Origin: an uncultured bacterium | GTDB lineage: Bacteria; Verrucomicrobiota; Kiritimatiellia; CAIKKV01; CAIJXV01 | DNA length: 38,743 bases | NCBI GenBank assembly: GCA_903824675.1 | Contig: CAIJXV010000034.1 | Location: 1 to 38,743, forward strand | Direction: 5' to 3' | In this document: positions 1 to 38,545 of the stretch, piece by piece | Layout: every line of letters starts with the position of its first letter | How positions within the stretch are numbered: the stretch's first letter is position 1 | Notes under the pieces: generated by a model | What the model saw: only the letters and a program-made list of their open reading frames with translations | Database searches by the model: none | Told to the model about the DNA's origin: nothing | Translations under genes and position numbers: made by a program

Positions 1-213
1 CCCGCTCCCTCTCCAGACGCCCGCCACCGAGGGCGGGCCGACATCGAGTGAAAACGGTTGGTGTTCGCCCTTTAGGGTAGGGCTTCGTCCACAACCCGAT
101 TCCCCAGTGTTGTCGGCCGGGCCTCTGCGCCCGGCGTCCACGGATCCAGCCCGCTCCCTCTCCAGACGCCCGCCACCGAGGGCGGGCCGACATCGAGTGA
201 AAACGGTTGGTGT
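1..213. repeat. Tandem intergenic repeat, two copies of a 64-bp exact core
   Basis: Bases 1-64 and 150-213 are identical, giving a repeat period of 149 bp. Each copy holds a strong hairpin (GCCCGCC / GGGCGGGC around 20-38 and 169-187), and the spacer holds a second one (GGCCGGGC / GCCCGGC near 117-136). The same unit occurs twice more in inverted orientation at about 13701-13828 and 13870-13972. No open frame in it looks like a gene. It is a dispersed noncoding repeat family; the window edge cuts the first copy, so its true end is unknown. Confidence 0.8.
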
Positions 214-329
214 GCACCGAATCGCAGAGGCGCCCAGGGTCGAACCTCTACATTAAGATTTGCTTCCCCCCGCCAATCCTGATACAAGCGCGAGCCATTG
301 TTCGATATCTTTTCCCTGGAGGATTCACC

Positions 330-5233: not shown

Positions 5234-6261
5234 GCCTGAATTCCCTTGTAGTCGGTAAGCGGGTTTCCGCTTGGCTGGTAGCTGGATGCGACGGTAGTTG
5301 GCGCGCGTGCCGGGCAAACCTCGGAGACTTTCGTCGGAAACATCTGAAGCGCCTTGATCTGCTTTATCGCATCTCGTTCCGAGACAGCGTCCACCTCCCC
5401 TGTCCGTTCGTTCCCCTTCGAGTCCATAGCTACGTAACGCCACTTCGCTGGGCGTCTGTCTGTATGGTCCGAACCACCACCAACGCTATAGGGCCGGATC
5501 TTACTGCTCGCGCAATGCGGACATTCCGGAGACAAACCCGACACACGGATGCACTTGGAGCAAATCACCTTTCCGCACTCTGCGCAGCAGAGCGCCTTGC
5601 CTTCCATCTCCTCTCTGGATGTAAGCCTGTAACCGTCCTGTAACGAGAATAGTTCCAGTACCGTATTGCACACCGAGCAACGGCACTTCTGAACATTCCG
5701 CTGGTGCGACGCTGCAGAGATCGAGTCGGCATGTCCTGCTGAGCGCTTCCGAGAAAGTTGTTCCGTGCCATTCTGGCCCTGGGCAATCCATTGTGTTCTT
5801 AGTCTGCGAGATAGCCTTACCGATGTCGTGATCCATCGCAGAACTAGGAATGTAATCGACAGTAAAATGATTTTAGCAACTAGAGCACCATAGGGGTTAG
5901 GGGCGTCACCCAAGAAGCTTATTGATAGGCCCGGCAAAACAAACAGAACGAGGACAAAGGAACCAATACCCAGTGCGCGTGACGCCCCACAAGTTCTGCA
6001 AGTGAAATGTCCATTCGGTTGTCCACACACACGACATTTAGCAACAGAGGACTCAGGTAAGGCTGAGGACTGAATGCACTGTTTGCAGATATACGACGTG
6101 CAATGATTGCAGGTGTAACTGACGTCGTCGTGACTTCCGCATTTGTTGCAGCGAGATCCCATCACGACAACGCCAGACCCGAGTGAATTTCCACTTCTAT
6201 GTCCGCCCTGATAGCCGAAGCGTCGACTCACGTCTCCTGATTCGCACATCGGACATTTCAT
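5179..6261 (-). CDS. Zinc-ribbon membrane protein with GspF-N-like module (cassette gene)
   Basis: A 360-residue protein with no recognised full-length family. Cys pairs suggest zinc ribbons at the N-terminus (CPMC at 3-6, CNKC 38-41, CNHC 51-54, CKQC 59-62, CRVC 76-79, CRTC 88-91). Two membrane helices follow (about 98-117 and 126-146), then a second Cys-rich block (CRCSVC 193-198, CCAEC 225-229, CSKC 234-237, CPHC 247-250). Residues 274-314 (WRYVAMDSKGNERTGEVDA...) closely resemble the N-terminal module of the type II secretion / type IV pilus inner-membrane protein GspF/PilC (pattern YxAxDxxGxxxxGxxxAxxxxxAxxxLxxxxxxPxxV), here detached from its membrane domains. The last 18 residues are encoded inside attC site A. 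The ATG is preceded by AGAGGAG at a spacing of 9. Gene of a mobile cassette; function unknown. Confidence 0.8.
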   Translation of the reverse strand: MKCPMCESGDVSRRFGYQGGHRSGNSLGSGVVVMGSRCNKCGSHDDVSYTCNHCTSYICKQCIQSSALPESSVAKCRVCGQPNGHFTCRTCGASRALGIGSFVLVLFVLPGLSISFLGDAPNPYGALVAKIILLSITFLVLRWITTSVRLSRRLRTQWIAQGQNGTEQLSRKRSAGHADSISAASHQRNVQKCRCSVCNTVLELFSLQDGYRLTSREEMEGKALCCAECGKVICSKCIRVSGLSPECPHCASSKIRPYSVGGGSDHTDRRPAKWRYVAMDSKGNERTGEVDAVSERDAIKQIKALQMFPTKVSEVCPARAPTTVASSYQPSGNPLTDYKGIQAPNQVPEDTARKLADPQH

Positions 6262-12524: not shown

Positions 12525-13544
<1,020 letters not shown>

Positions 13545-13617: not shown

Positions 13618-13647
13618 ATGCTATCGTTTCAAGGGCGTCCCTGTCAA
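13618..13647 (-). promoter_or_regulatory. Putative recA promoter
   Basis: On the minus strand TTGACA (13647-13642) and TAGCAT (13623-13618) are 18 nt apart, about 75 nt upstream of the recA start. The -35 box overlaps the 15-bp direct repeat that flanks the inserted element at 13659-14162. I do not recognise a LexA box. Confidence 0.5.
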
Positions 13648-13658
13648 TGTCGCGAAAG

Positions 13659-14162
13659 GTGGATTGTAAAGTTAAATGCCGCAGAAGTTTTCCCTGTTCT
13701 CCGACCGTTTTCACTCGATGTCGGCCCGCCCTCGGTGGCGGGCGTCCGGTAATGGAGGAGATTGGATCAGCGGACGCCGGGCGCAGAGGCCCGGCCTACA
13801 ACAACGGGGAATCGGGTTGTGGGCGTAGCCCCACCTGGGCGATTTATCAAGGAAATAGGCGAATTTACACCGACCGTTTTCACTCGATGTCGGCCCGCCC
13901 TCGGTGGCGGGCGTCCGGTAATGGAGGGGATTTGGATCAGCGGACGCCGGGCGCAGAGGCCCGGCCTACAACCCATGAGATCCCTCGCCTTCGCCTGCCC
14001 TGAGGATATCGAAGGGCTCGGGATGACAATGGGTAAGGCGAGCTCTTCCAGCCTTCGTAGTCACGCCTTGGCGTGACGGAGTAGGCCCGAGCGAGCCGGA
14101 GCTGAATATAAGATATCTCACAGCAAGCAATTACAAAACGGCATTCCACATTACAATTCTCA
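13659..14162. mobile_element. MITE-like insertion between clpB and the recA promoter
   Basis: A noncoding segment of about 504 bp. Its ends are imperfect terminal inverted repeats: the left end GTGGATTGTAAAGTTAAATG (13659 on) matches the reverse complement of the right end at 18 of 23 aligned positions, with the conserved cores ATTGTAA and ATGCCG. Both ends are flanked at once by the direct repeat TCAATGTCGCGAAAG (13644-13658 and 14163-14177), as expected of a target-site duplication, though 15 bp is long for one. Inside are two copies of the intergenic repeat also found at 1-213, and a GTCACGCC/GGCGTGAC hairpin (14060-14077). No transposase is encoded, so it would be non-autonomous. Confidence 0.55.
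13701..13975. repeat. Two further copies of the dispersed hairpin repeat, inverted
   Basis: Units at about 13701-13828 and 13870-13972 are nearly identical over roughly 100 bp, with single-base differences such as GAGGAGATT versus GAGGGGATTT. They are the reverse complement of the repeat at 1-213. Each holds the GCCCGCC/GGCGGGC hairpin and a second GCCGGGC/GCCCGGC hairpin. Confidence 0.85.
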
Positions 14163-14182
14163 TCAATGTCGCGAAAGACTGT

Positions 14183-16789
14183 TTATTTGACCGTAAACGT
14201 CAGCTCCCCTTTGAGGGCATCGACTTTCAAGGTCTGCCCTTCCCCTATTTCACCAGCGATCAATTTGCGGGCCACCGGCGTTTCGAGATGCGCCTGGATG
14301 AACCGCTTCATCGGCCGCGCGCCATACACGGCATCGTAGCCTTCCCGGGCGATGTGTTTCTTCGCCGCCTCGCTCAGGACTAACTCGACCCGTTGTTGGG
14401 CCAGCCGGTGACGTAACTCCTCCACCTGGATATCTGCGATCCGGACAATCTCCGCCATCGTCAAGGGTTTGAACAGGACGATATCATCCACCCGATTCAA
14501 GAATTCAGGCCGGAACTTTGCACGGAGTTCGCCCATGACCCCCTGACGAGCGGATTCGGTCAGATTCCCATCCCGGTCAATCCCCTCCAGCAGAATCGGC
14601 GATCCGATGTTGCTGGTCAGAATCAGAATCGCGTTCTTAAAGTTCACCGTACGACCATGGGAGTCGGTCAGCCGCCCGTCATCCATCACCTGGAGCAGGA
14701 CATTGAAAACATCCGGATGGGCTTTCTCGATTTCATCGAAAAGAATCACACTGTAGGGCTTGCGGCGAACCGCCTCGGTCAATTGTCCGGCATCATCGTA
14801 GCCGACATAACCGGGAGGCGCCCCGATCAGCCGGGCCACTGTGTGTTTCTCCATGTATTCGCTCATATCGATGCGAATCAGGTTCTCCTCGGTATCGAAC
14901 AGGGTCTCCGCCAGGGCTTTGGCCAACTCGGTCTTCCCCACCCCGGTCGGCCCCAGAAATAGAAAGGTGCCCACCGGTCGACGGGGATTTCCAATTCCGG
15001 CGCGGGCCCGCTGGACGGCATCGGTGACCGCCTGGACCGCCTCATCCTGACCAATCACCCACCGATGCAGCGTATCGCCCAGATGGATCAACTTGGCGCG
15101 CTCCCCCTCGACCAGGCGATTGAGCGGAATGCCCGTCCACCGCGAAACCACGGCGGCAATTTCATCCTCGGTCACCTCTTCCTTGACCAGGGTCTTGCTG
15201 CCGGCGACCGAAGCGCTGAGCTTCTGCTGTTCCGCCAGCTTGCGCTCCAACTCCGGAATCACTCCATGCCGGAGTTTGGCCAGGCGATCCAGGTCATAGG
15301 CCCGTTCCGCCTCCTCGGACTCGCGCCGGGCCGCCTCCAGATGTTCCCGTAGATTTTGCACTTTGCCGATGGCCTGCTTTTCAGTATCCCATTGGGCGCG
15401 CAGGGTCTTGGCTTCGGATTGCAATTCGGCCAATTCCTTGCGCAAGGTTTCCAGGCGCTGGAGACTCCCGCTGTCCTGCTCCTTTTTCAGGGCCGTTTCC
15501 TCGATCTCCAACCGCATGATCCGACGGGTAATCCCATCCAGTTCGGCCGGTAGGGAGTCGATTTCCGTACGAATCGAGGCACAGGCTTCATCCATCAAAT
15601 CAATGGCTTTGTCGGGCAGAAAGCGGTCGCTGATATACCGATCCGCCAGGACCGCCGACGCGACCAGCGCGGCATCCTTGATCCGGACCCCGTGATGAAT
15701 TTCAAACCGCTCCCGCAAACCGCGCAAAATCGAAATGGTGTCCTCGACCGAAGGCGCCTCGACGACAATCGGTTGGAACCGGCGCTCCAGGGCGGCGTCT
15801 TTTTCAATGTTTTTGCGATATTCGTCGAGCGTTGTCGCCCCGATGCAATGTAGTTCACCGCGCGCCAGCATCGGCTTGAGCATATTGCCGGCATCGGTCG
15901 AACCCTCGGTTCGCCCCGCCCCCACAATCGTATGCACTTCATCGATGAAGAGCAGAATCCGGCCTGCGGCGGATTTGATCTCGGTCAACACCGCCTTCAG
16001 CCGCTCCTCGAATTCGCCGCGGTATTTGGCCCCCGCCATCAACGCCGTCATATCGAGGGCGAAAATCGTTCGATCCTTCAATCCCTCGGGGACATCCCCC
16101 CGGAGAATCCGATGCGCCAACCCCTCGACAATCGCGGTTTTTCCAACCCCGGGCTCGCCGATCAGGACGGGATTATTCTTGGTTTTACGGGACAGGATTC
16201 GAATCACACTGCGGATTTCCGTATCCCTCCCAATAACGGGATCAAGCTTGCCGGCCCGCGCCAACGCCACCAAGTCCACCCCGTATTTCTGCAGGGCTTC
16301 GTAGGACTCCTCCGGATTGGCACTGGTAACCCGCTGGTTCCCCCGCACCGACGTCAACGCCTGTAAGAACCGTTCGCGAGTGACCTGGTATTCCGCTAAG
16401 ATTTTACCCGCCGGCGTCTTGCGCCCCTCTTCAATCAAAGCCAGCAACAGGTGCTCCACCGAAAGATATTCGTCCTTCAGCTGCTTGGCCGCGTCTCCCG
16501 CCCGAACCAACAACCGGTTCAACCGCTGGGTGACATAAACCTTGCCGGATTCCGAGCCGCCACCCGAAACCTTGGGCAGACGTTCCAACTCCTGTTCCAC
16601 CCGGGCCTGAAGTTCCTTGACCGGCACTTCCATTTTCTGGAACAAGCGCACAGCCAATCCATCTTCCTGCTCCAGGAGTACCAGGAACAAATGCTCGGCA
16701 TCCACTTCCTGATGGCTGTACCGAATGGCTTTAACCTGCGCCGCATGCAAAGCGTCCTGAACCTTTTGAGTCATTTGATTCGTATCCAT
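14183..16789 (-). CDS. clpB: ATP-dependent disaggregase ClpB
   Basis: An 868-residue AAA+ chaperone that solubilises protein aggregates together with DnaK. The Clp N-domain repeats are at about 1-145 and Walker A1 GEPGVGKT is at 211-218. The long coiled-coil M domain (about 410-530), which sets ClpB apart from ClpA and ClpC, includes [20 protein letters not shown]. The second AAA+ module has Walker A2 [14 protein letters not shown] near 610-623. The C-terminal domain ends in LTFTVK. The ATG at 16789 is chosen because AAAGGAG stands 6 nt before it and [14 protein letters not shown] is the normal N-terminus; the open frame begins 9 codons earlier. A heat-shock-type regulatory site was not seen. 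Confidence 0.97.
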
Positions 16790-16958
16790 GGCAAACTCCT
16801 TTCCATACACCAACATCCCGTTTGAAATGATCGGGAAATCTCTTGCGTCTCTCGCTTCTTAATTAATTAGCAAATAACATGCCAATTTCATCGTAACGGT
16901 AAGTCGTTTTATTGCAATAGATTAATATTGAAACGGCAACAAGAAAAAGAGACAGGAT

Positions 16959-33500: not shown

Positions 33501-33875
33501 GCCGGAACGATTCCGGGGCCGTACGTTTCCGCGGTGGCGCGATACCCGGCCACGTTTCGTGGACGCTCATCGCGTGGCTACTCTCCCGCAAGCCAGCCCA
33601 TAGGTCTGGCTATACTGCCTGATGCACCCTATCGCCAGAGTCTCGCCCTCAGGGGGGAACTATCCATCTTGTATTGACGCTTGGAGGGCGAGACTCTGGC
33701 GAGCCGTCTGTCTACGGCCCGAGGAGGTCAGGAACTGCCGCACCGCGGAGATTCCGCGAGGAGCAGGGACCCCCGTTTAATCTTGACTAAGCCCCCCCTT
33801 AATCGCTAATAATTCACGCTTTATGCCGTCGCTCGATTGGATGGAACAACCGCCAAGGCGGAAAGGGCTGAAACC
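33501..33875. other. Intergenic region with long perfect inverted repeat
   Basis: The 375 bp hold no convincing gene. Bases 33632-33650 (TCGCCAGAGTCTCGCCCTC) are the exact reverse complement of 33684-33702, with a 33-nt spacer, giving a 19-bp stem. Smaller stems are present near 33548-33560 (CCACGTTTCGTGG). The stem sequence has the look of dispersed repeat units in PVC genomes, but no second copy lies in this window. Confidence 0.75.
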
Positions 33876-38190: not shown

Positions 38191-38545
38191 TGGTGGAGGC
38201 GGGGGGAATTGAACCCCCGTCCGCAAGAAGGTCACAACAGCGTCTACGTGCGTACCCGGTCTTTGTATCTCGTCGGTAAAAACGGCGGCCGTTAGCCTTT
38301 ATTACCGACCAGCACCCACGAAAAGTTTCGCTCGAACACCCGGTTGCCCGATGTCCAAACTAACCTGCTGTCATCGTTTCATCCACCTAGCAGGTGTTGA
38401 TGGCGAAACGTCACGGCACTAGTTAGGCCGCGAGGGCCAAGTTATCGTTGGCTTTTATGTTTGTTTCCGGATGTTTAACGAGGCCAACCGGAGTCCTCGG
38501 CACGCAACTGAAGCTTCTCTTCGAGCGTCGAAACCGATCGCCCCC
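38191..38545 (-). ncRNA. ssrA: Transfer-messenger RNA (tmRNA)
   Basis: A 355-nt RNA that rescues stalled ribosomes. The 3' end (38220-38191 on the minus strand) gives the T-arm GGGGGTTCAATTCCCCC and the acceptor end GCCTCC-ACCA with CCA encoded; it pairs with the 5' end GGGGGC (38545-38540). The tag frame is at 38452-38423: resume codon GCC, giving ANDNLALAA and stop TAA, so the full tag is (A)ANDNLALAA, with the usual ALAA end that marks proteins for ClpXP. One-piece (not permuted) form. Its partner smpB is not in the window. Confidence 0.97.

Follow-up and report, generated by a model that had tools for sequence, protein, structure and literature searches.

Between clpB and recA, an uncultured Kiritimatiellae bacterium carries a member of a genuine MITE family, characterised by IS30-type ends, long and variable target duplications and captured REP-like cargo. 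We regard it as probable that this family of about 20 copies is non-autonomous and was mobilised in trans by an IS30-type DDE transposase that cuts its target with a long stagger. By sequence, the ends point to an enzyme of the IS30 type; the only relative that could be used for testing, the genome G027, leaves the long duplication unexplained.

The element in the clpB-recA gap

The analysed stretch of 38,743 nucleotides (the window) is contig C34 of a 96%-complete genome of 4.24 Mb. The identities of recA (12525-13544, minus strand) and clpB (14183-16816, minus strand) were both confirmed, and the MITE was found inserted between recA and the clpB stop (14183) (Table 1). Only two exact copies of the 15-mer TCAATGTCGCGAAAG are present in the window, starting at 13644 and 14163. 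The first-pass annotation had described a noncoding segment bracketed by identical 15-bp copies; this was borne out by the copies at 13644-13658 and 14163-14177, and no gene-like ORF was detected inside the element, where the longest ORFs run over repeat sequence. Because the final G of the repeat can equally be assigned to the first base of the element, the duplication of this copy is 14 or 15 bp long. The terminal repeats, ATTGTAAAGTTAAATGCCG at 13663-13681 and ATTGTAATGTGGAATGCCG on the other strand at 14139-14157, agree at 16 of 19 positions, and the pattern common to both was found nowhere else in the window (0.05 expected). An RNA-family search of the window returned nothing besides a tmRNA gene (38191-38545, minus strand; Rfam RF00023, 173 bits), which lies away from the element.

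Table 1. Positions in the window of the element, its flanking duplications and related features
Feature	Position	Strand	Basis and remarks
REP-like array of the captured block's family, lacking element ends	1..218	-	Repeat search; at contig end; two units at a distance of 149 bp
Predicted recA promoter TTGACA-18-TAGCAT, intact	13618..13647	-	Promoter scan
Left target-duplication copy TCAATGTCGCGAAAG	13644..13658	.	Exact repeat and promoter scan; holds TTGA of the recA -35 box
Element left end GGTGGATTGTAAAGTTAAATGCCGCA	13658..13683	+	23 genome places at ≤3 mismatches; first G common with the duplication
First REP-like block, two G+C-rich palindromes and spacer	13701..13869	+	Repeat search and alignment; extra block, in the window copy only among 16 aligned
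Second REP-like block, common to the ~329-bp copies	13870..13972	+	Repeat comparison and 16-copy alignment
Right-hand body, common to the minimal 174-bp copies, with two inserted short repeats	13973..14138	+	Alignment
Element right end, TGAGAATTGTAATGTGGAATGCCG on the minus strand	14139..14162	-	33 genome places at ≤3 mismatches
Right target-duplication copy	14163..14177	.	Exact repeat; 5 bp downstream of the clpB stop

The left copy of the duplication does overlap the -35 box of recA, as had been noticed earlier, since it contains TTGA. The related claim that part of the promoter region was duplicated by the insertion stands for the upstream DNA including TTGA, which was copied, but not for the promoter core (-35/-10), which was left intact; in the second copy the sequence is TTGATG, with no -10 box to accompany it. 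As the duplication covers only TTGA and the DNA upstream, the element replaced the sequence upstream of -35 and separated recA from the clpB end. Altered recA expression is possible given this arrangement, and any effect on regulation is probably modest because the promoter core was kept.

Copies of the element across the genome

The ends of the element recur at about 20 sites in its genome. With up to 3 mismatches allowed, the left end matched 23 places and the right end 33, the two lists overlapping partly since the ends are alike, and the reversed-pattern controls gave 0 matches for either. The check proposed in the first-pass annotation, a search for other genomic copies of the ends with flanking direct repeats, was thus positive, and the imperfect terminal inverted repeats described there proved to be multicopy. 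Sixteen copies have both ends; measured from GGATTG to CAATTC, they are 174 bp (n = 5), 197 bp (n = 1), 288-289 bp (n = 2), 328-330 bp (n = 7) and 499 bp (n = 1, the window copy) long. Their alignment separates a minimal form of 174 bp from a lineage of longer copies, whose body contains a REP-like block together with two further short repeats. An additional REP-like block accounts for the greater length of the window copy, the longest of all. With multicopy inverted ends, their own flanking duplications, lengths of 174-499 bp and no transposase gene, these copies support the initial designation as MITE-like. The first-pass annotation had anticipated neither the IS30-type ends nor the variation in duplication length.

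An IS30-type relative shares the ends

With the 174-bp form as query against 58 relatives, the left end was detected at many places of G027, the MAG WLWN01000001 labelled Kiritimatiellae bacterium MH-Pat, whose isolate name suggests that it is the Mycale hentscheli symbiont Ca. Patea custodiens of PMC7157528. In G027 the ends GGTGGATTGTAAAATTAAATGCCGC / TGAGAATTGTAATATTAAATGCCC bound an IS of ~1.22 kb, present in about 50 copies, that encodes a 354-aa transposase of the IS30 family (NCBIfam NF033563, 1.7e-69, 234.5 bits). Compared with this IS, the MITE agrees at 29 of 32 bases of the left end and about 22 of 24 of the right end, and the asymmetric outermost bases GGTGG / TCTCA are common to both. 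Among 288 genomes of the class, dozens of such ends were present only in the MITE-bearing genome (37 matches) and in G027 (59), and the reversed-pattern control gave two matches in all. A complete IS30-type element with similar ends was also seen in one further genome, G072.

The IS30-family transposase belongs to the relative; the MITE encodes none, and no autonomous partner was found in its own 96%-complete assembly, in which searches that were positive in other genomes returned no IS30-family transposase. Multi-copy IS are often absent from metagenome assemblies, and either such an assembly gap or loss of the gene would account for this. The genome has three rve-domain loci, and such ends were found at none of them. 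Contigs of Draconibacterium, Nitrospirae and Bacteroidetes also matched the end pattern. These matches were discarded: none of those inspected had paired ends enclosing a transposase, and we estimate that a collection that large would yield roughly as many by chance.

At 47 intact end pairs of the G027 IS no target duplication was detected, neither a long one nor a convincing one of 2-4 bp. Recombination among the G027 copies as a cause of scrambled duplications was rejected, as no convincing cross-matches across copies were found. The 47 sites showed no clear excess of symmetry that would indicate palindromic targets. G027 also carries a 126-bp internal-deletion derivative of the IS (L202, 2012-2140), likewise with no target duplication. 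Dozens of copies of another, more distantly related transposase of this kind were also seen in G027 (places with 31-33% identity). Furthermore, a contig binned as Gammaproteobacteria (L218, MH1_Bin6), by its name probably from the same sponge, has these IS ends at 28-48 and 6059-6079, at both contig ends; it is possibly misbinned Kiritimatiellae DNA.

The 47 G027 insertions thus give no example of a long duplication made by this transposase. This would fit mobilisation of the MITE by a DDE enzyme of unrelated origin whose natural product is a long duplication, such as one of the IS1202 type, the resemblance to the G027 ends then being convergent or borrowed; long duplications are indeed known for some IS1202-family groups. 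We nevertheless consider such an enzyme unlikely, given how closely both ends agree with the G027 IS down to the asymmetric outermost bases, the nearly empty reversed-pattern control, and the lack of such ends at the three rve-domain loci.

Target duplications and an empty site

A flanking direct repeat was found at 17 of 20 copies, with scores of 9-17, and its sequence differs at every site. When the left flank of one copy was paired with the right flank of another, the highest score in 380 pairings was 8. The duplications are mostly 12-17 bp long, 14-17 bp in the cleanest copies and 10-15 bp, some with mismatches, in older-looking ones; this variation in length is real, with the caution that the assignment of 1-3 bases on each side (GGT left, TC or TCN right) is ambiguous. 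One end is missing from C11a and from C33, which still have the duplication (C11a is without the left 35 bases and has a duplication of 15 bp), and a third, C93b, has an internal deletion and keeps its last 11 bases. These defects are best read as later deletions.

A duplication of variable length, retained by copies shortened at one end, would also be expected from a retroelement-like insertion through target-primed reverse transcription. That origin appears very improbable: in most copies both inverted-repeat ends are intact, the shortened ones are damaged at either end or internally, as later deletions would give, and ends of this kind belong to a DNA transposon.

One copy, C45, sits inside another dispersed repeat. 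Its target was rebuilt from the flanks with a single copy of the duplication, and the rebuilt site was found uninterrupted in other copies of that repeat (C105, C88, C20, C58 and C63, and one at 33712-33769 of the window); the comparison is therefore one with a paralogous empty site. The dispersed repeat (CTCGCGTAATCTCCGCGGTGCGG) lies on the minus strand in the window and at about 19 other places of the genome, and at least two MITE copies (C45 and C31) were inserted into or beside it. An orthologous empty site in the clpB-recA gap could not be compared, as clpB adjoined recA in 0 of 16 order-level relatives in the fetched flanks, but the view that the 15-mers and inverted ends arose by chance or recombination without insertion is refuted by duplications of different sequence at 17 of 20 copies and by the empty site of C45. 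No clear excess of target symmetry was seen at 12 sites of the MITE-bearing genome, and inverted-repeat targets of the IS1630 kind were not found there either.

REP-like cargo

Two G+C-rich palindromes make up the REP-like block. The hairpin block of window positions 1-213 is present twice inside the element, in line with the earlier statement that the element carries this hairpin family. The further idea of a composite was right as well, since the block belongs to a separate family dispersed in the genome, takes up one position in the ~329-bp copies and is doubled only in the window copy. There the two blocks follow each other with a 169-bp period, and the spacer of the extra block otherwise occurs in independent block arrays, at 1-213 of the window and at more than 20 other places. 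The pattern suggests that the second block was probably gained by recombination with such an array. Three weak Y1 transposase loci were found in the genome; the block was absent from the flanks fetched for them.

A model for mobilisation

In the preferred model of mobilisation in trans, an IS30-type transposase would recognise the ~25-bp ends GGTGGATTGTAAAGTTAAATGCCGCA / TGAGAATTGTAATGTGAAATGCCGC and join them to target DNA cut at widely staggered positions, and repair of the single strands would yield duplications of mostly 12-17 bp. The minimal 174-bp copies would represent the basic form; one lineage may have captured a REP-like block and spread as the ~329-bp copies, and the window copy would have gained its second block later. 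The IS30-type transposase as maker of the insertions, the stagger and the order of captures are what we infer from the copies and their ends.

More tentatively, and with somewhat less than even confidence, we suggest that target cuts are spaced differently between lineages, and even between insertions, of a single IS30 subgroup whose ends are near-identical, from none visible to a loose 12-17 bp, without palindromic targets. Target-cut spacing is normally constant within a transposase family; if the suggestion is true, it would be evolvable and loose in this subgroup. The same ends with a duplication in one genome and without one in G027 provide a clean pair for asking what sets this spacing. 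Moreover, a MITE family tied by its ends to an IS30-type element is documented in an uncultured lineage, and a MITE that carries REP-like palindromes presents one way in which such repeats may spread.

Comparison with known elements

IS30-family elements make short target duplications of 2-3 bp, and classical IS30 prefers palindromic targets. The duplications described here depart from this, being 12-17 bp long in the MITE-bearing genome and undetectable in G027, and palindromic targets were found in neither. Like the MITEs of Acinetobacter, Coxiella and Pseudomonas, the elements are short and non-coding, with inverted ends, a target duplication and dependence on an IS; unlike this family, the bacterial MITEs known to us have short duplications of fixed length. 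IS30 is unmentioned in a review of prokaryotic MITEs. The resemblance to REP/BIME sequences lies in the captured block, a G+C-rich palindrome pair spread through the genome; the element differs from them in having transposon ends, and a Y1 transposase gene was not found adjoining the block. The G027 IS has nearly identical ends with the same asymmetry and likewise a short internal-deletion derivative, but it is 1.22 kb long, includes the transposase and shows a target duplication at none of 47 sites.

For long variable duplications made by an IS30-type element, the literature search found IS1630 of Mycoplasma fermentans as the sole precedent. Its ends are 27 bp long and its duplications vary (16, 23, 25 and 26 bp; PMC3317919), and by the title of Calcutt 1999, as cited in PMC3317919, it targets inverted repeats. 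Whereas IS1630 is autonomous, and its inverted-repeat targeting was not seen in the MITE family, both are of the IS30 type and both are flanked by duplications that are long and variable in length.
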